Assembly (NCBI RefSeq): GCF_011516755.1
Contig: NZ_WOSY01000005.1
Location: forward strand, 124,001-188,000
Reading direction: 5' to 3'
DNA length: 64,000 nt
Origin: Acetobacter conturbans
Lineage (GTDB): Bacteria; Pseudomonadota; Alphaproteobacteria; Acetobacterales; Acetobacteraceae
Part shown: one piece after another, positions 10,039-31,658 of the stretch
Numbering within the stretch: the first letter of the stretch is position 1
How the letters are laid out: every line of letters starts with the position of its first letter
Program-made: the position numbers and the translations under genes
Notes under the pieces: model-generated
Database searches by the model: none
Told to the model about the DNA's origin: nothing
What the model saw: the letters and a program-made list of their open reading frames with translations, nothing else

Positions 10039-10826
10039 ACGGTTCGATGCGTAATCTCGCGCTTTGGGGTGCCGCCTCGGCAGTGCTGGCGTTCCTCCTT
10101 CTGCCACTGTTGATCGTGCTGGTGTTCGCGTTCGATGCCTCATCCGTGCAGATCTGGCCCATCCACTCCTTTTCGCTGAAATGGTTTGCCGCCACCTGGG
10201 CCGATGAGGAAGTGCGGGGTGCGCTCCTCGTCTCGCTGGAGGTCGCGGGGCTGGCGACGCTGTTGGCATCCGTGCTGGGCACTCTGGCAGCGGTCGGCAT
10301 GAACGGTCTCTCGTCGCGCGCTGTGCAGGTCGGAGCCTTTTTCCTGACGCTGCCCATCGCGCTGCCCGGTGTGCTGACCGGCATTGCGATGAACAGCTTT
10401 TTCACCGCTCTGGAGATTCCCTTCACGATGGTGACTCTGGTGATTGCGCATACAACGTTCTGCACGGTCATCATCTACAGCAATGTCATGGCGCGGCTTC
10501 GTCGCCTCCCTCCCTCCCTGACCGAAGCGGCGCAGGATATGGGCGCTACGCCGTTGCGTAGTTTCACCAGCATCACCCTGCCGCTTCTTGGGGGTGCCAT
10601 CGTCTCCGGCATGCTGCTGGCTTTCGCGCTTTCCTTTGATGAGGTAATCGTTTCAACCTTTACGGCAGGGAGCGAGACGACGCTTCCATTGTGGATTTTT
10701 GGCGCTATCCGGCTGGGTCAGCATATGCCGGAAGTGAATGTCGTGGTGTTCGTGGTGGTGGCCGTGACTCTGCTGCCCATCATTCTGGGCCAGAAACTGG
10801 CGGCCTCCGTATCGCGGGAGCGGTAA
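10035..10826 (+). CDS. ABC transporter permease, PotC/YdcV type
   Basis: The product has 263 residues and six predicted membrane helices, with the EAA loop EAAQDMGATPLRSFTSITLP. The conserved segment ALSFDEVIVSTFTAG is typical of the PotC/YdcV branch. It forms the permease pair with the upstream gene and overlaps it by four bases (ATGA). It is the last transport gene before the LysR regulator. Confidence 0.9.
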   Translation: MNGSMRNLALWGAASAVLAFLLLPLLIVLVFAFDASSVQIWPIHSFSLKWFAATWADEEVRGALLVSLEVAGLATLLASVLGTLAAVGMNGLSSRAVQVGAFFLTLPIALPGVLTGIAMNSFFTALEIPFTMVTLVIAHTTFCTVIIYSNVMARLRRLPPSLTEAAQDMGATPLRSFTSITLPLLGGAIVSGMLLAFALSFDEVIVSTFTAGSETTLPLWIFGAIRLGQHMPEVNVVVFVVVAVTLLPIILGQKLAASVSRER

Positions 10827-10879
10827 CGGAGGCTGACTTCGTAACTGTTTCCGGAAAAGGCAGGAGAACAGCACGCATC

Positions 10880-11842
10880 ATGGCCCTTACCCTGCGTCAG
10901 CTCCGTTATTTCACGTCCGTCGCGGAAGTCGGGTCGATTTCCGGCGCGGCGATGGTGCTGCTTGTGTCCCAGTCCACCGTTACGGAAGCGATGCGTGATC
11001 TGGAGGCCGAAATGGGCTTCCGGCTTTTCGAACGTCATGCGCGGGGCATCATCCTGACACGACGTGGGCAGCAGTTTCTTCTGCGTGTACAACGGATTCT
11101 CGATGATGTCGCGGATGCGCAGCGGATGAAGGACGAGGATGAAGACGCCCTCGTCGGTACGCTGGTGCTGGGCGTTACGCCCGTGGTGGCGGGCTATGTG
11201 CTGCCCGATCTGCTCACCCGTTTCCGGCGGGCTTTTCCGCGTGTCGAGATCACGCTGGTTGAAGATCAGGCCGAGTATCTGGACCACATGCTGATCGGCG
11301 GCGAACTCGATCTGGCGATCATGCTGCGGCTTGGCGATACGGTGCCGAGCGCCTGTGGCGTGCGGGTGATGGGGGTGTCGCCGCATTATGTCTGGCTGTC
11401 TCATGGCCACCCGCTGACGGCAGAGAAACAGGTCAGCCTGAAACAGCTCGGATCGGAGCCTTATATTGCTTTGGCCACGGATGTTCTGGAAAGCCGGATG
11501 GGCGCGGTATGGGAGCGGTTTTCCTTTCAGCCACCCATCTGTTTTCGTTCCACGTCCATAGAAGCCGTGCGTAGCCTCGTCGGCGGAGGGCATGGAATCG
11601 CGCTGTTGCCACAGCTCATTTATCGGCCGTGGTCTCTGGAGGGGGAAAAGATCGAATGCCGACCGGTGCACGAGGAATTGCCGATGGCGGATCTTCTGGT
11701 CATGTGGCGGCGCGGGCTCTCGCTTGGCGTCCCCGCGCAGTATTTCATGGACATGGCTTTGCAGAGAACCAGCCGTTCGTCCGGGGGCGGGGAAGCAACG
11801 GCCATTTTGGGGAAAGTTGATATGGGGGCAGGTTCTTCCTGA
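10880..11842 (+). CDS. LysR-family transcriptional regulator
   Basis: The product has 320 residues. The N-terminal winged helix-turn-helix is at about 3-60 (LRQLRYFTSVAEVGSISGAA, VSQSTVTEAMRDLEAEMG, LFERHARGIILTRRG). A periplasmic-binding-like effector domain spans about 90-300. AGGAG at 10862-10866 supports this start; the open frame from 10691 lies inside the permease gene. It sits between the polyamine importer and GABA aminotransferase on the same strand, so it probably controls that module in response to an amine or GABA intermediate. That role is inferred. LysR genes are more often divergent from their targets. Confidence 0.88.
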   Translation: MALTLRQLRYFTSVAEVGSISGAAMVLLVSQSTVTEAMRDLEAEMGFRLFERHARGIILTRRGQQFLLRVQRILDDVADAQRMKDEDEDALVGTLVLGVTPVVAGYVLPDLLTRFRRAFPRVEITLVEDQAEYLDHMLIGGELDLAIMLRLGDTVPSACGVRVMGVSPHYVWLSHGHPLTAEKQVSLKQLGSEPYIALATDVLESRMGAVWERFSFQPPICFRSTSIEAVRSLVGGGHGIALLPQLIYRPWSLEGEKIECRPVHEELPMADLLVMWRRGLSLGVPAQYFMDMALQRTSRSSGGGEATAILGKVDMGAGSS

Positions 11843-12013: not shown

Positions 12014-13294
12014 GTGAATACAGGCAAGAGCAACAAGGATCTGGCTGCACGTCGTGCGGCAGCGGTTCCCGTTGGCGTTGGGTCGGCAACAGCGATTTAT
12101 GCGGATCGCGCACTGGGTGCCGAGATGTGGGATGTCGAAGGACGCCGCTATGTCGATTTTGCCGCCGGTATTGCGGTGGTGAATGTCGGGCATCGTCACC
12201 CGCGCATCATCGAGGCCGTGCAGGAGCAGTTGGGTCGCTTCAGCCACACCAGCTTTCAGGTCGCGCCCTATGAGAACTATGTTGCTCTCGCCGAGCGTCT
12301 GAACGCCCTCGCGCCTTTCGATGGTCCGGCGAAGAGCATCTTCTTCACCACCGGCGCGGAAGCGACCGAGAACGCGGTGAAGATCGCCCGCGCCGCCACG
12401 GGCCGTTCCGGCGTGATCGCCTTTACGGGCGGTTTCCATGGCCGCACGCTGCTGGCCTCTGCCATGACCGGCAAGACCAATCCCTACAAGACGCAGTTTG
12501 GCACAATGCCGGGCGACATCTTCCATGCCCCGTTCCCGGCGCGTGGCGTGTCTGTGGCCGACAGTCTCCGTGCGATCGACCTCATGTTCGCCGCCGATGT
12601 CGATCCGTCACGTGTGGCCGCCATCATCATCGAGCCCATTCAGGGTGAAGGCGGCTTCCGCGTTGCACCGAAGGAGCTGCTTGAAGGTCTGCGGGAGCGG
12701 TGCACGAGGCACGGCATTCTGCTGATCGCCGATGAGGTACAGACGGGATTTGCGCGCACGGGCAAGCTGTTCGGCATTCACCATTCGGGCGTGAAGCCGG
12801 ATCTGGTCTCTGTGGCGAAGGCCCTTGGCGGTGGTTTCCCGCTGTCTGGTGTGGTCGGGCGTGCGGACATCATGGACGCAGTGCGGCCGGGCGGTCTTGG
12901 GGGCACCTATGGTGGAACGCCGATGGCCTGCGCCGCCGGTCTTGCTGTTCTGGATGTCATCGAATCCGAAAAGCTGTGTGAACGCGCCCAGCATATCGGG
13001 GCCACGATCAGCAAGCGCATCGAAGGCTGGACAACGCGCAGCGATCTGATTTCGGTGGGCAAGCCGCATGGTCTGGGCGCAATGGTCGGTTTCGACATTC
13101 TGAAGGCCCGGGGTTCAGAGGATATCGAGGCTGGGGCTGCCGGTCGCGTTTGCGCCATGGCTGCGGATGCGGGTGTGATCGTTCTGTCCTGTGGCGTGTT
13201 CGGCGAGACGGTGCGTCTGTTGCCGCCGCTGACGATCAGCGATGAAGTGCTGAACGAGGGTCTGGACCTGCTGGAGCAGGCGCTCAGAGCCTGA
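12014..13294 (+). CDS. gabT: 4-aminobutyrate aminotransferase
   Basis: The product has 426 residues and is a class-III PLP aminotransferase. It transfers the GABA amino group to 2-oxoglutarate, giving succinate semialdehyde. The PLP lysine is K269 (SVAKALGGGFPLSG). Family landmarks shared with E. coli GabT include FAAGIAVVNVGHRHP, TTGAEATENAVKIARAAT, EPIQGEGGF, LIADEVQTGFARTG and GGLGGTYGG. GTG start with a weak ribosome site. It continues the pathway after PatD. No succinate-semialdehyde dehydrogenase is nearby, so that step must be encoded elsewhere. Confidence 0.9.
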   Translation: MNTGKSNKDLAARRAAAVPVGVGSATAIYADRALGAEMWDVEGRRYVDFAAGIAVVNVGHRHPRIIEAVQEQLGRFSHTSFQVAPYENYVALAERLNALAPFDGPAKSIFFTTGAEATENAVKIARAATGRSGVIAFTGGFHGRTLLASAMTGKTNPYKTQFGTMPGDIFHAPFPARGVSVADSLRAIDLMFAADVDPSRVAAIIIEPIQGEGGFRVAPKELLEGLRERCTRHGILLIADEVQTGFARTGKLFGIHHSGVKPDLVSVAKALGGGFPLSGVVGRADIMDAVRPGGLGGTYGGTPMACAAGLAVLDVIESEKLCERAQHIGATISKRIEGWTTRSDLISVGKPHGLGAMVGFDILKARGSEDIEAGAAGRVCAMAADAGVIVLSCGVFGETVRLLPPLTISDEVLNEGLDLLEQALRA

Positions 13295-13313
13295 ATCTGA
13301 CGCACTCTTGGGT

Positions 13314-15428: not shown

Positions 15429-15768
15429 ATATGTCGTTCTTTAATGGTGATCGTTCAAATTCTGCTTCGAATGCAGCACGCAGCCGAAGCATTCTGGCTA
15501 AGGAAATATAATGATTTGAAATAAAGGTAGATATTTTTCTAAATACTGACTTTGCAGGTAATGTTTATATTTCCCGATATTTATAACATCTGCCGCTCAC
15601 AGTCATGGCTGGACGCTTTGTCCTCTCCGTCCGTTCATGCTCCCTGTGTCACATAGCTGTCCTTACCAGGAACCGCATCTGTTCATGGTTTTTTCCGGCA
15701 CGAGTAGAGGCATCGGGACTGGATGCCGCAATCAGAGATATCAGGCTGAAGGGGCCGTGAGACCGATA
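15429..15768. other. AT-rich intergenic region with imperfect inverted repeat
   Basis: These 340 bases lie upstream of the Ig-repeat gene and downstream of the outer-membrane protein gene, both on -. The half at 15480-15600 is clearly AT-rich. It contains ATGTTTATAT (15561-15570) facing ATATTTATAACAT (15577-15589). This is a likely promoter/operator zone for the Ig-repeat gene. No coding frame is convincing. Confidence 0.5.
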
Positions 15769-22797: not shown

Positions 22798-23700
22798 TCA
22801 CGGTGGACAGGCTTCCGGCGGCAGTCCCAGAGCGGCGTCATGGAGGAACTGTTCGTCTGTCAGGGTCAGCAAAAAGGCCTCCACGGCCTTTTCATCGTTC
22901 TCCGACAAAGACCGGGTTCCCCGATGCGCCGCCAGCGCTTCATGGAGAGTCTTCGCCGAGCCATCATGCCAGTAAGGGGCTGTCACGCCGACGTTCCGCA
23001 AGGAAGGGGTGCGGATACGCACGTTGGCCGCCGGATCGAAGGCGTAAAACTTTTGATCCGTGAACAGAGGGGCGGCATGACATCCCGAGCAGCCGCCGCG
23101 TCCTAAAAACTGGGCTTCACCTCGTTTCGCTTCCGCACTCAGAACGGCTTTACCGCGCCGCGCTTCGTCCCACTGGCTGTTCCGGGAGACCAGAGTCCTC
23201 TCAAAGGCCGCCACGGCCATTGCAATCGTTTCGGCGTCGATCGGTCTTTCCGCGTGGGGGAAACTGCGTGCGAACAGGCGTCGATAACAGGCATCGCCTT
23301 CGATACGGTTCGTCATTGTCTTCCGGTCCGTCATGCCCATCTCAACCGGATGATGTCCCATGACCGGAACAAAAAACTGCTTTTCAAGACGGGATATATG
23401 CTGATCCACCCAGGTCAGGGTGACGAAATCACCGACATTCCCGAGTGAAGGCACGTTGCGCACGCCAGCCTCGTCCGTGACGCCCGGATGGGTCGCGTTT
23501 CCATCTGCGAACGCATGGCGCTGCTCATGACAGGTCGCGCAGGACATGCTGCCATCTGCGGAGAGGTCGGCGTCATAAAACAGCCGCCTCCCAAGCTGTT
23601 CACGGGCATACTGTGGCGAAAGATCGCCTGCTCCGCAAAGCAGGCTGACACTGAGTAAACAAAACGCGGATGCAAAAAGACGTTTGAAAGACAAAAGCAT
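22798..23700 (-). CDS. MauG/MbnH-like di-heme cytochrome c peroxidase family protein
   Basis: The product has 300 residues with a signal peptide at about 1-24. Two haem c sites are visible: CATCH (54-58) and CSGCH (204-208). The central stretch LTWVDQHISRLEKQFFVPVMGHHPVEMG (split here by helix breaks) resembles the MbnH branch of the MauG superfamily rather than classical cytochrome c peroxidase. Later motifs include VAAFERTLVS and RTPSLRNVGVTAPYWHDGS. MauG-type enzymes use bis-Fe(IV) chemistry to oxidise residues of a partner protein. The ATG overlaps the stop of the upstream small exported protein (TAATG), which suggests translational coupling and a functional pair. Confidence 0.85.
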   Translation of the reverse strand: MLLSFKRLFASAFCLLSVSLLCGAGDLSPQYAREQLGRRLFYDADLSADGSMSCATCHEQRHAFADGNATHPGVTDEAGVRNVPSLGNVGDFVTLTWVDQHISRLEKQFFVPVMGHHPVEMGMTDRKTMTNRIEGDACYRRLFARSFPHAERPIDAETIAMAVAAFERTLVSRNSQWDEARRGKAVLSAEAKRGEAQFLGRGGCSGCHAAPLFTDQKFYAFDPAANVRIRTPSLRNVGVTAPYWHDGSAKTLHEALAAHRGTRSLSENDEKAVEAFLLTLTDEQFLHDAALGLPPEACPP

Positions 23701-24257
23701 TACGGAACAGGCACCACCATGACTTCAGAGACGGGCTTGCCGCTTCCACTTAACTGGATCACGGACCGTCCTGCCGGCAGAGGGAAATCCACCATCTTTC
23801 CAATGGTGCTGCATGCGGGACCATGCTGATGATGAACAGCGTCGAGTGCCTTTCCGTCATGCACAACGTCGAGCCATGCCCGTACGTTCAGCATGACCCG
23901 ATATGTTCCGGCTACCGGTGCATCAAAGGCTATCATGCCCCCCGAACTGACCTTTCCGCCCGGTTCTGCCGGACGCAGGGCATAGGTTATCTCGGCCGTC
24001 CGCCGTAACGTGACGCGCGCCGCCTTGCCAGGTGTCAAAACCGCGCTTTCCAGTCCCGAAACTTCGGTTGCCGCCCTCATTTCCACGGGCGATGACCAGC
24101 CACGCAGTCCCTCTGGAAGGACAACCTGTCCGGGGAGGCAGGCTTCATGTCCCGGCATGCTGTCCATTCCGGTCGCGAAACACTGTGTCACAGAGGCAAT
24201 CGCAACACCCAAGGTAAATATTGCCATCCCTGCTGGCCATTTCATGCTTGCAATCAC
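23700..24257 (-). CDS. Small exported partner of di-heme peroxidase, unknown function
   Basis: The product has 185 residues with a signal peptide at about 1-28. The mature part is beta-rich and includes W54, W128, a His-rich patch (H142, H143, H145, with H133 nearby) and two cysteines (C40, C149). Similar proteins, as I recall, are often mislabelled homogentisate 1,2-dioxygenase; no dioxygenase motif is visible here. It is coupled by a TAATG overlap to the MauG/MbnH-like peroxidase and is divergent from a TonB receptor. A metal-binding substrate protein of the peroxidase, analogous to MbnP, is my inference. It lacks the four-cysteine pattern of classical MbnP. Confidence 0.78.
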   Translation of the reverse strand: MIASMKWPAGMAIFTLGVAIASVTQCFATGMDSMPGHEACLPGQVVLPEGLRGWSSPVEMRAATEVSGLESAVLTPGKAARVTLRRTAEITYALRPAEPGGKVSSGGMIAFDAPVAGTYRVMLNVRAWLDVVHDGKALDAVHHQHGPACSTIGKMVDFPLPAGRSVIQLSGSGKPVSEVMVVPVP

Positions 24258-24325
24258 CCGACTTCACTCCTTATACCGCAGTCGAAACTATATTCCTGTA
24301 TATATAAACCACGGATCGTCACTGA
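24258..24325. promoter_or_regulatory. Divergent promoter region of peroxidase pair and TonB receptor
   Basis: Only 68 AT-rich bases separate the two divergent units. They contain TATATTCCTGTATATATA around 24288-24305, partly self-complementary. Such a short shared region implies coordinated control of receptor and peroxidase pair. No known operator is recognised. Confidence 0.45.
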
Positions 24326-26560
24326 GTGAAACATCGTCTTCCGCTTACGGCCCTCTCCACACTGTTCTGCGCCACTGTCGCTCAGGCCCAGATGCCAGTT
24401 GTGGCGAGTGACAAAAAAATTGCTGCCAGCAAAGGCGGTTTGACAATACACGCCCCCATGCCGACAAAATCTGTGGTTCCAGCGGTAAGCCGCCCCGTGC
24501 TGACTCCGGCGAATGCTGCCGTGACCGCCGAGGCTCCGCGTGAGGACAGCGCCTACGATGCCCTCACGCCCGGAAAATCCCGCTACAGCAGCACGCAGGC
24601 CGATCCAGCCAGTCCCGACATTTACGGTCCGGGTGAAATCACGGTTTACGGCACCCACCGTCAGCACAGCCTTGTCGGAAGCAACTCTCTTTCGGCTGAA
24701 TCAATCTATACTTTTAACAAAACGACTCTCGATCAGGCTGCGAACCTCATCCCAGGTGTCAATGCGGCCAGCACCGGTGGTCCGCGTAATGAATCCACCA
24801 TTATGGTGCGCGGATTTAACCGTTTTCAGGTCCCTCTGCTCGTCGATGGCATCCGTATTTATCTTCCCGCCGATAATCGCCTCGATTATGGGCGCTTCCT
24901 GACGCCTGATATTGCCGAACTTCAGGTCGCCAAAGGCTATGCTTCCGTTCTTGATGGGCCGGATGCCATGGGCGGCATGGTCAATCTCGTCACCCGCAAG
25001 CCCCATAAAGCCATCGAAGGAGAACTGCGGGGTGGCAGCATGCTCGGCCATGACGGCGGTTATGGTGGCTATAATGTTTTCGGTCGGGTCGGCACGAAGC
25101 AGGATAAATGGTACGCTCAGGTGAGCTTCGCGGTGAACAACGTCGATCATACCGATCTTTCTTCGAATTACACACCAACGGCGACGCAGGGAAAAGGCAA
25201 GCGGCTTCTGTCTGATTCCGAAGACTGGCGCGTCAACGTCAAGGCCGGATACACCCCTAACACCACTGATGAATACACCGTCAATTACACGCGGCAGGAA
25301 GGCCAGAAACGAGCGCCTTTCGATGTCCACGATTCCGTCAGCACTCAGAAAGACTGGACATGGCCCGCATGGGATCTGGACAGTCTGTCGCTGACCAGCC
25401 GGACACGTCTTGCCGATCGCCTGACCCTGCGCTCGCGGCTCTACCGCAATACCTTTTACAATCTGCTCAGCAGCTACGATAACGCCAGCCTGAATACGCA
25501 GACAAAACCTAAAGCCTTCAACAGCTTTTACAACGACTCGGCCTGGGGCGGAAACGTCCGTCTCGATGCGGAAATCTCCAGTAAGGATACGCTCGGCATC
25601 GCTTTCTACGGGCGGCGCGATGAACATCAGGAACAGGAGCAGGTCTATCCCGGCGGTGGCTGGCAGCCTCAGGTGTCCTCCGTGGAGGAAAGCTACAGTA
25701 TCGCTGGTGAAAACGTCTTTCGTATCCTGCCCAATCTCGATCTGACCACTGGTGTCAGCTATGAGTGGCGCGTTCTTGACCGTGCGCAGGGCTATTCCTC
25801 GGGCGTCATCAACTATGCCACCCGCAACCGTGGTGCACCCAATGGGCAGGCGCGTCTCAGCTGGCGTCCCGACACAGTCTCCGAGCTGCATATCAGTGTG
25901 TCCGACCGTGTCCGTTTCCCGACACTCTTCGAACGCTTCAGCACCCGTTTCGGCGGGGCGACCTCCAATCCCGGCCTTCGTCCCGAACGCGCCCAGAACT
26001 ATGAACTTGGCGGCTCACACACTTTCGGAAGCATCGATGTTGCCGGGGCGCTGTTTTACTCGCATCTCACCGATCTCATCGCGGATTTCCCGACCATCTA
26101 TAATGGCGTGGCCGTGAGTCAGAGTCGCAATATCAGCAGCGGTAACTATGCCGGGGCCGAAATCTCCATTTCGATGCCTGTCAGGAAAAACCTTCTCATT
26201 GGCGGCAACTATACCTACATCCATCAGAGCGTGAATGATCCTGTCACACGCATCTATAAAGCGACGGACGTTCCCAGTCACAAAGCCTTCGTTTATGTGC
26301 AGTGGGAGCCGATCAAAGGACTGCGTTTCGTTCCCAATGTTTCTATCAATTCCAACCGCTGGACGACGAACACAGCCGGAACAGCCTATTTCCGTACCGG
26401 ACATAACGTCGATGTCGCCGCCCGCGTCGATTACCAGATCACCCCCAATCTGCAGGTGGGCGTTAACGCTTCCAATCTTCTCGACCAGAATTATCAGCTC
26501 GTGGACGGATTTCCTTCGCAAGGTCGTAATTTCTTCGTCAATCTTCGTATCTCGGGCTGA
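24326..26560 (+). CDS. TonB-dependent receptor linked to peroxidase pair
   Basis: The product has 744 residues with a signal peptide at about 1-21. A low-complexity N-terminal region (about 25-100) is followed by a plug domain at about 110-220 (GEITVYGTHRQ, TLDQAANLIPGV, STIMVRGFNRFQVPLLVDGIRI, AKGYASVLDGPDAMGG). A 22-strand barrel with the usual end NASNLLDQNYQL completes it. It ends NLRISG rather than in an aromatic residue. GTG start with a weak ribosome site. It is divergent from the peroxidase/partner pair, so the ligand may be a metal or metal chelate handled by them. B12 or siderophore import remain possible. Confidence 0.88.
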   Translation: MKHRLPLTALSTLFCATVAQAQMPVVASDKKIAASKGGLTIHAPMPTKSVVPAVSRPVLTPANAAVTAEAPREDSAYDALTPGKSRYSSTQADPASPDIYGPGEITVYGTHRQHSLVGSNSLSAESIYTFNKTTLDQAANLIPGVNAASTGGPRNESTIMVRGFNRFQVPLLVDGIRIYLPADNRLDYGRFLTPDIAELQVAKGYASVLDGPDAMGGMVNLVTRKPHKAIEGELRGGSMLGHDGGYGGYNVFGRVGTKQDKWYAQVSFAVNNVDHTDLSSNYTPTATQGKGKRLLSDSEDWRVNVKAGYTPNTTDEYTVNYTRQEGQKRAPFDVHDSVSTQKDWTWPAWDLDSLSLTSRTRLADRLTLRSRLYRNTFYNLLSSYDNASLNTQTKPKAFNSFYNDSAWGGNVRLDAEISSKDTLGIAFYGRRDEHQEQEQVYPGGGWQPQVSSVEESYSIAGENVFRILPNLDLTTGVSYEWRVLDRAQGYSSGVINYATRNRGAPNGQARLSWRPDTVSELHISVSDRVRFPTLFERFSTRFGGATSNPGLRPERAQNYELGGSHTFGSIDVAGALFYSHLTDLIADFPTIYNGVAVSQSRNISSGNYAGAEISISMPVRKNLLIGGNYTYIHQSVNDPVTRIYKATDVPSHKAFVYVQWEPIKGLRFVPNVSINSNRWTTNTAGTAYFRTGHNVDVAARVDYQITPNLQVGVNASNLLDQNYQLVDGFPSQGRNFFVNLRISG

Positions 26561-30296: not shown

Positions 30297-30452
30297 GAGA
30301 TCCTCAGAATCGTGCCTGACCGCAGGTCCGGATTTGCACCCCTGATCGCGGTCGTGTTCAAGTTCGCCGCAAATTGCGCATCCGTGGGCCTCCGGTCAAG
30401 CTTTCATGCACTTCAGATGGCTCTGGAGCCCCAAAAAATTCGGAATCAGTCC

Positions 30453-31658
30453 ATGATCGAGGTCTCAGAAGCTCTTCAACGAATCGTTTCCGCCCTGCCG
30501 GTCCTCGGTACGGAGACCGTATCGCTGCTTGAAGCCTGCGGTCGGATCAGCGCGGCACCGGTTGTGGCACGGCTTTCCAATCCTCCCGCAGACGTCTCCT
30601 CCATGGATGGATATGCCGTGCAGGCTGCCGATACGACGCGTGGCGCGCAACTCGATATTATCGGCGAGATACCGGCCGGGCATCCCAGCGACAGGAGCGT
30701 TACGCCCGGAACGTGCCTGCGTATCTTCACCGGCAGTGTCATGCCGGAGGGGGCCGATGCCGTCCTCATTCAGGAAAACACCACGCGGGAGAGCGACCGG
30801 ATCACTGTCACCGAGCCTGTCTCCCAGGGACGGTTCATTCGTCCCAAGGGGCTGGATTTTGCCAGCGGTCAGGTCGTGGTGCCGGTTGGGAAACGCCTGT
30901 CGGCCCGCGATGTCGGGGTGGCGGCCAGCGCCAACTGTCCGTGGATCACGGTCCGGCGACGTCCACGTGTCGCGATCCTCAGCACGGGAGACGAAATCGT
31001 GCTGCCGGGCGATGCGGTACCTGCGGGCGCCATCGTCGGTTCCGCCGCTTTCATGCTGGCTGCTCTTCTGCGCAAGGCGGGGGCAGAGCCGGTTATCCTG
31101 CCTGTGGCACGCGATACCATGGACTCCCTGACCACCAGCACGAGCCAGCTTGATACGGTCGATCTGCTGCTCACCATCGGCGGCGCAAGTGTCGGTGACT
31201 ATGATCTGGTGAAAAAGGCATTGGGGGAAAGCGGTCTGGTCACCGATTTCTGGAAGATCGCCATGCGGCCGGGTAAACCGCTGATGTTCGGCAGGATGGG
31301 CAGAACGCCGGTCATTGGCCTGCCGGGCAATCCGGTGGCGGTCTTCGTGTGTAGCACGGTCTTCGTGCTGCCTGCCCTGAGAGCGATGTGTGCCGAGGTC
31401 GTGACGGGTGACGGCACGGAACCCGCGCGGCTTGCCAGCGATGTGTCCGCCAATGACCAGCGTTTCGATTATCTCCGCGCCACGCTGAGCCGGGATGAAG
31501 ACGGCACGTTGTGGGCGACGCCGTTTTCGAGACAGGATTCGTCGATGATGGCGCCTCTTTCCGCCTGCGATGCGCTGCTTCTGCGCGAGCGTTTCGCGCC
31601 GGAAGCAAAGCGCGGCGAGATGTGCCGGATTGTGCGTTTCGGTGGCGGGATCGACTGA
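30453..31658 (+). CDS. moeA: Molybdopterin molybdenumtransferase
   Basis: The product has 401 residues. It inserts molybdate into adenylylated molybdopterin. Family landmarks are NPPADVSSMDGYAV, GTCLRIFTGSVMPEGADAV, RPKGLDFASGQVVVPVG, ILSTGDEIV, GGASVGDYDLV and MRPGKPLMFGRMG with VIGLPGNPVAVFV. ATG 30453 (MIEVSEALQRIV) fits the family start; the frame is open from 30312. No other molybdenum-cofactor genes are in the window, but molybdoenzymes are plausible in oxidative acetic acid bacteria. Confidence 0.93.
   Translation: MIEVSEALQRIVSALPVLGTETVSLLEACGRISAAPVVARLSNPPADVSSMDGYAVQAADTTRGAQLDIIGEIPAGHPSDRSVTPGTCLRIFTGSVMPEGADAVLIQENTTRESDRITVTEPVSQGRFIRPKGLDFASGQVVVPVGKRLSARDVGVAASANCPWITVRRRPRVAILSTGDEIVLPGDAVPAGAIVGSAAFMLAALLRKAGAEPVILPVARDTMDSLTTSTSQLDTVDLLLTIGGASVGDYDLVKKALGESGLVTDFWKIAMRPGKPLMFGRMGRTPVIGLPGNPVAVFVCSTVFVLPALRAMCAEVVTGDGTEPARLASDVSANDQRFDYLRATLSRDEDGTLWATPFSRQDSSMMAPLSACDALLLRERFAPEAKRGEMCRIVRFGGGID

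Follow-up and report, generated by a model that had tools for sequence, protein, structure and literature searches.

A predicted ModE-type operator at a locus for an MbnH-clade di-heme enzyme, a small exported protein and a TonB receptor in Acetobacter conturbans suggests a molybdenum or tungsten uptake module

The DNA analysed here (the window) is a stretch of 64,000 nucleotides from Acetobacter conturbans, positions 124,001 to 188,000 of contig NZ_WOSY01000005.1 (assembly GCF_011516755.1), and all coordinates below are counted from its first base unless another contig or locus is named. It contains three adjacent genes that we suggest form an outer-membrane uptake module for molybdenum or tungsten. 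Two lie on the minus strand: a small exported protein (P0002, 23700..24245, 181 residues from its ATG, with an alternative GTG start at 24257) and a di-heme c-type enzyme of the MbnH clade (P0001, 22798..23700, 300 residues; 236.2 bits to TIGR04039 and 147.9 bits to PF03150), whose ATG is part of the TAATG overlap that closes the small gene. The third, divergent from these on the plus strand, encodes a TonB-dependent receptor (P0003, 24326..26560, 744 residues) with plug (PF07715, 60.3 bits) and beta-barrel (PF00593, 95.4 bits) domains, both above cut-off. Between the divergent genes is an exact match to the palindrome TATAT-N6-ATATA (24289..24304, no strand), which we predict to be a ModE-type operator. 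A first-pass annotation had given the same gene calls and coordinates, the TAATG overlap and the two CxxCH motifs of the enzyme (residues 54-58 and 204-208), and all of these are present. Its residues in the small protein (W54, W128, H142/143/145, C40/C149) are right when counted from the GTG, which is why they are four higher than the ATG numbers used here (W50, W124, H138/139/141, C36/C145), and its distance of 68 bases to the receptor start likewise holds from the GTG; it becomes 80 bp if the ATG is the start.

The arrangement of the genes recurs. A scan of genome contigs with a nine-row profile of the small protein confirmed 165 relatives, of which the best 80 were taken with up to 10 kb of flank on each side and joined by four plasmid records to give 84 loci. 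Neighbours were clustered as called genes from a simple gene caller, not as raw open reading frames (ORFs). TonB receptors were accepted above 150 bits and di-heme enzymes above 100 bits. Receptor and enzyme both stand beside the small gene at 48 of the 84 loci, the enzyme only at 10, the receptor only at 4 and neither at 22, which puts a receptor relative next to the small gene at 52. Several loci are on short contigs and missing neighbours may lie off the contig, so these counts are lower bounds. In each of the 58 loci that have both genes, the di-heme ORF comes after the small gene and is read in the same direction, and in the 48 three-gene loci the receptor is divergent in 44 and co-directional upstream in 4; such an arrangement is far beyond chance. 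The gene-neighbourhood count that the first-pass annotation had proposed thus bears out its pairing of enzyme and exported protein with the receptor. Judged by their record titles, the loci come from acetic acid bacteria, Sphingomonadales, Caulobacterales, Hyphomonadaceae, Methylorubrum and Nitrobacter; a single record labelled Bacillus is probably a contaminated assembly. Among named genomes the small protein is matched most closely by sequences from Gluconacetobacter (53-70% identity). A single-sequence search of 200 genomes of the host's own family matched seven, its own included, and two of these (L006 and L007, E about 4e-4) were dropped as weak matches that we take for chance. The earlier claim that many homologues are mislabelled as homogentisate 1,2-dioxygenase holds in part, in that the label is found on two of the four plasmid records, the others being one 'hypothetical protein' and one that is unannotated there; some public proteins of that name therefore belong to this module.

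Of the 26 loci where no enzyme gene adjoins the small gene, 22 had their complete genomes searched for one, with three further genomes as positive controls; 11 of these 22 gave a match with E of at most 1e-20. The matches are close in the genomes of L017, L025, L063 and L087, and the remaining ones resemble distant paralogues. Provided that contig C1 is the one that carries the L017 locus, about 13 kb separate the enzyme gene of that genome from its small gene. Three loci (L066, L067 and L081) keep receptor, small gene and palindrome in genomes with no enzyme match at E 1e-20, and the exported protein and the receptor can therefore evidently work without the enzyme.

The palindrome was found on reading the divergent promoters, and we conclude from its sequence that a conserved ModE-type operator is located there. 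Each locus was scored by the number of arm bases matched, out of 10, to TATAT-N5..9-ATATA in the 430 bp upstream of the small gene. Scores of 9-10 are reached in 43 of the 48 three-gene loci and in all four receptor-only loci, compared to 16 of 527 upstream regions of the same size (430 bp) from other called genes. With 250-bp regions the control gave 12 of 538, and at least five of these 12 are beside ModE or Mop genes. Within the 43 loci, 6 of 1,654 equal-sized segments elsewhere reach the score of their locus, and for the site of A. conturbans, even if one mismatch is tolerated, chance would yield 0.03 matches in the window. Among loci with a co-directional receptor, a palindrome stands upstream of the receptor in L010 and L088, where it scores 10, and in L058, where it has the form CGTTATGT...ACATAACG; L046 has none. 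L041 scores 8. The arms match the published Escherichia coli ModE consensus, which appears in excerpts of two papers as ATCGNTATATA-N6-TATATANCGAT (PMC545781) and, nearly identically, as ATCGCTATATA-N6-TATATAACGAT (PMC2700814). The distance from TATAT to ATATA in the 44 module sites scoring at least 8 is N8, the E. coli spacing, in 25 and N6, two bases shorter, in 19. A further box-like site with one mismatch occurs in the window at 15566-15581.

The genes around the module point to the same regulator. A gene for a ModE-type winged helix-turn-helix (wHTH) protein is near the small gene, within the fetched flanks, at 21 of the 84 loci, and every one of these 21 has a TIGR00637 match with E no higher than 0.001. 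It directly follows the enzyme gene in nine loci (gap -33 to 15 bp) and the small gene in two loci that have no enzyme gene. A Mop-like TOBE gene is near in six loci; that of L009, the only one scanned, is over the TIGR00638 cut-off. In five loci (L009, L051, L066, L068 and L078) the Mop-like gene lies no more than about 200 bases upstream of a ModE-type gene that has only the wHTH part, which suggests a split ModE whose DNA-binding and molybdate-binding parts would be separate proteins. A. conturbans itself has a ModE-type wHTH gene (119 residues, 72.9 bits, E 6.1e-20). ModA was found in 23 of 30 genomes, giving 26 ModA-type places, two of which are below cut-off. Over 600 bp of upstream sequence, six of the 26 have a box that scores at least 9 and 12 one that scores at least 8; the opposite side of the ModA gene gives no place with at least 9 and one with at least 8. 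In the Caulobacter genome G213 the left arm CTCGTTATGTA is common to the sites at modA and at the module.

In the genome of A. conturbans the exact pattern TATAT-N6..8-ATATA has 13 matches at 12 places, compared to five for the reversed control. One is the module and another an operon of the molybdenum-hydroxylase type (L205:2-1516), where about 108 bp separate the box from a downstream [2Fe-2S] subunit gene, after which comes a gene for a molybdopterin-binding subunit. ModE-type boxes also occur beside a second TonB receptor (L203, G000:C5:205052), a divergent NMT1-type ATP-binding cassette transporter (L104, C13:82749), an aldehyde dehydrogenase (L200, C3:221048), a major facilitator superfamily transporter (L092, C3:286917) and a phosphoesterase (L201, C4:62866). 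The second receptor, the two transporters, the dehydrogenase and the phosphoesterase make up a candidate ModE regulon. Beside the remaining exact sites there is no clear gene, a frame resembling a transposase, or unassigned frames. A gene for MoeA-type molybdopterin biosynthesis lies in the window at 30312-31658, 3.8 kb beyond the end of the receptor; this may be a coincidence, and we have not used it as evidence.

The first-pass annotation had classed the enzyme as MauG/MbnH-like, and the phylogeny places it with MbnH. In a maximum likelihood tree of 63 rows, rooted at the midpoint, 22 module rows, five MbnH references and the two enzymes from the L025 and L087 genomes (L143 and L144) share one branch with 100/100 support. 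Within it the module rows form a branch of their own (97/98), which excludes L143 and L144. The five MauG rows, of which one passes the MauG cut-off, fall outside the MbnH branch, as do the other di-heme rows that were sampled, among which are some that resemble CcpA in their motifs. The search with the MbnH model TIGR04039 that the same annotation had proposed did give a match, but its 236.2 bits are below the cut-off of 362.85; for the MauG model TIGR03791 the figures are 131.4 and 443.85 bits. The best solved chain is 6e1c, 'Di-heme enzyme' (E 6.7e-47).

The first CxxCH (23527..23541) belongs to the peroxidatic heme, and its C54, C57 and H58 are present in 59 of 59 rows; the second (23077..23091) is present in 57 of 59, with two gaps. 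The distal pocket residues placed by alignment are nearly invariant (Q108 in 58, P112 and E120 in 59 of 59 rows), the inter-heme tryptophan W97 occurs in only 44, and there is an additional conserved cysteine pair (C138 in 58, C298 in 57). The axial-ligand position of the second heme, 15 residues after the PYxHDG motif, is His259 (22924..22926), a histidine in 57 of 59 module rows. The other two, L016 and L042, have no residue there because their open frames are cut or broken; in L016 (Gluconacetobacter tumulicola) the frame at 10459-11127 of that locus stops before the second heme motif. The same position aligns with tyrosine in 6e1c, in all five MbnH references and in the MauG references, and with methionine in the CcpA-type chains 3o5c and 3hq8. 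By analogy with these known structures His259 would be a ligand of the second heme, and the module enzyme would have a bis-His electron-transfer heme. An earlier guess that W244, within PYxHDG, is the ligand was dropped because the CcpA, MbnH and MauG alignments all place the ligand 15 residues later. A change of the axial tyrosine of MauG to histidine reportedly abolished its bis-Fe(IV) chemistry. In cytochrome c peroxidases, according to an excerpt of PMC7567364, methionine or histidine replaces the Tyr294 that is conserved in MauGs, so that a histidine at this position has precedent. The AlphaFold2 model of the enzyme is only partly confident (mean pLDDT, the predicted local confidence, 77) and was not used.

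The small exported protein has no Pfam or NCBIfam match, and 38 of its relatives have no consistent one. A beta sandwich is predicted with confidence by AlphaFold2 (mean pLDDT 88, with blocks from residue 41 onwards at 90-99). The closest fold is the PPC/collagen-binding domain (5iku, Z score 10.0, root-mean-square deviation 3.0 over 106 aligned residues), other folds following from a Z score of 7.2 down, and the best Foldseek match is 1nqd (E 1.6e-4). The PPC profile PF04151 matches two of the 39 members (best E 0.044). We describe the predicted fold of the model as PPC-like. The partner had been said not to be a classical MbnP, and we agree: the MbnP model TIGR04052 (cut-off 140 bits) matches none of the 39 members and all four reference MbnP sequences (149-230 bits), while hhalign against an alignment of only those four gives a probability of 0.3 (E 0.19). 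No MbnP-like entry is in the list of structure matches, although such a list cannot show absence. On the TIGR04052 and hhalign results a copper module with an MbnP partner was rejected.

Conservation in the small protein was compared between 58 paired rows, the window included, and 20 rows picked for having no enzyme gene at the locus, two of which (L025 and L087) have an MbnH-like enzyme elsewhere in the genome. C36, W124, C145 and K150 are present in all 58 and all 20 rows, W50 and H139 in 57 of 58 and all 20. The loop PGGxV (residues 95-99) is constant across the paired rows, whereas most of the unpaired ones have lost it, with P95 in 58 of 58 versus 15 of 20 and G97 and V99 in 58 of 58 versus 6 of 20 each; the six unpaired rows that keep it are five from Gluconacetobacter and L067, which retains receptor and box. 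No oxidisable residue therefore tracks the enzyme, and the loop does, with exceptions. A tryptophan of the partner had been put forward as the residue modified by the enzyme. The comparison lends this no support, as W50 and W124 are conserved to the same degree in the 20 unpaired rows; the axial tyrosine, too, is missing from the enzyme.

Taken together, we read the three genes as an outer-membrane module for the uptake of molybdenum, or tungsten, that would be controlled by ModE and repressed by molybdate, and we put the probability of this at about 0.62. The operator and the gene content come from the data; from them we infer the ligand, the direction of control and the chemistry. With molybdate plentiful, ModE, its wHTH part on the operator and molybdate sensed by a Mop-type domain or protein, would switch off transcription in both directions. 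When molybdenum is short, the receptor would import a scarce complex of molybdenum or tungsten, for example with a catecholate 'molybdophore', and in the periplasm the exported protein would bind or present the metal species. Oxidation of the exported protein, or else of the organic ligand, by the di-heme enzyme with peroxide or O2 might then release molybdate to an inner-membrane transporter. An oxidative route of this kind, in which the bis-His enzyme touches its PPC-fold partner through the PGGxV loop and oxidises chelate or partner, is a tentative part of the proposal, and we consider it on balance unlikely. The first-pass annotation had proposed a metal-acquisition module analogous to MbnH/MbnP/MbnT. 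Its acquisition role fits; as to the metal, the regulatory evidence (the ModE-type box, the ModE and Mop genes and the boxes at modA and at a molybdoenzyme operon) speaks for molybdate and not for copper.

Several observations weigh against a molybdenum or tungsten uptake module. The box scores 9 in just one of the 10 enzyme-only loci and 9-10 in five of the 22 small-gene-only loci, leaving 17 of the latter without it, and L046 has all three genes but no box. The best of the 21 ModE-type matches (94.0 bits) is under the TIGR00637 cut-off of 98.5, as is that of A. conturbans. A strong box is found at only six of the 26 ModA-type places. The only ModA-like match of A. conturbans is below cut-off (45.9 versus 62.5 bits), and the search gave no ModA match in seven of 10 acetic acid bacteria. 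The looser one-mismatch pattern shows no excess in the A. conturbans genome (24 matches versus 27 for the reversed control). Finally, the ligand of the receptor is not readable from its sequence, and ModE control could serve a molybdenum-independent substitute function instead.

Such a substitute or protective function, for instance the detoxification of peroxide while molybdenum enzymes are inactive, would leave the receptor to an unrelated ligand, heme or a siderophore for example. The boxed L200 gene of the same genome would fit, since its product is an Aldedh-family aldehyde dehydrogenase, an enzyme independent of molybdenum, and so would the peroxidase-type pocket of Q108, P112 and E120, each in at least 58 of 59 rows. 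The best NCBIfam match of the receptor is the heme/haemoglobin receptor model TIGR01785, but at 109.1 bits it falls well below the cut-off of 316.85. TonB receptors are typical of the uptake of scarce nutrients, and L066, L067 and L081, with receptor, small gene and box, have no enzyme match in the genome at E 1e-20; we regard this explanation as distinctly unlikely. It is highly improbable that the palindrome is an ordinary AT-rich promoter element, or the site of another metal regulator such as Zur or Fur, with an incidental link to molybdate. The looser pattern is indeed not enriched in the A. conturbans genome, and in three Gluconobacter loci (L028 at 12111-13307, L030 and L035) a similar palindrome precedes a GTPase gene beyond the enzyme pair; the GTPase of L028, the only one scanned, is the zinc chaperone ZigA, and the palindrome there is possibly a Zur site. 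Against an ordinary element or Zur or Fur stand the box at 43 of 48 module loci compared to 16 of 527 other genes, its presence upstream of some modA genes and of a molybdoenzyme operon, the ModE and Mop genes nearby, and the Caulobacter variant common to module and modA.

The genes could also work much as MbnH and MbnP do, the enzyme oxidising a tryptophan or other residue of the small protein to create a site for copper or another metal and the receptor importing the metal complex. The placing of the enzyme in the MbnH clade, the one-strand gene pair at 58 of 84 loci and the PGGxV loop, which behaves as would be expected of an enzyme contact, all speak for this. Yet W50, W124, H139, C36, C145 and K150 are conserved just as well where no enzyme gene is adjacent, the loop too is kept by the five Gluconacetobacter rows and L067, and the partner is not MbnP-like. 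The enzyme, moreover, has histidine for the axial tyrosine and keeps W97 in 44 of 59 rows only, and the regulation points to molybdate. We think this explanation somewhat unlikely and prefer molybdenum or tungsten uptake under ModE.

How molybdenum and tungsten cross the outer membrane when scarce is poorly known, passive passage through porins being usually assumed. If our proposal is right, the module would provide a dedicated TonB route for these metals and, as far as we know, the first chemistry of the MauG/MbnH type for a metal other than copper. To our knowledge the arrangement of a small exported protein with a di-heme enzyme occurs only in copper systems, and the module would carry it into molybdenum biology. 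Named genes, a candidate regulator and a testable operator are now available in many Alphaproteobacteria, cultivated strains included. Among the matches listed from an open-access library we found no paper on a ModE-controlled TonB receptor or on such a module; subscription work or regulon databases may hold an earlier prediction of a Mo-type TonB receptor.

One of the nearest known systems is the methanobactin copper system, MbnH/MbnP with MbnT. The module shares with it an MbnH-clade di-heme enzyme beside a small exported protein and a TonB receptor, and differs in its non-MbnP partner, the histidine in place of the axial tyrosine, the C138/C298 pair and the ModE-type operator. MauG has a similar Gln/Glu distal pocket, as judged by alignment, but the module enzyme is below the MauG cut-off, stands outside the MauG rows of the tree and has no axial tyrosine. 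With CcpA it has two CxxCH motifs and similarity along the chain in common; it is set apart by histidine for the axial methionine, by its dedicated small exported neighbour and by its grouping with MbnH. The ModE regulon (modABC and molybdoenzymes) shares the type of operator and regulator, but none of its targets among the listed open-access matches is a TonB receptor, an MbnH-type enzyme or a PPC-fold protein. CorA/CorB and MopE are copper-repressible surface proteins with MauG-like partners. Compared by description (for CorA, an excerpt of PMC3912023), they resemble the module in having a metal-repressed small exported protein beside a MauG-like enzyme and are set apart from it by copper, where the module has control of the molybdate type. 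Lastly, the zinc receptor of Neisseria (PMC2895646) and the Zur regulon of Caulobacter (PMC4176598), both as described in excerpts, are alike in using a TonB receptor for a scarce metal, which in those systems is zinc and in the module would be molybdenum or tungsten.

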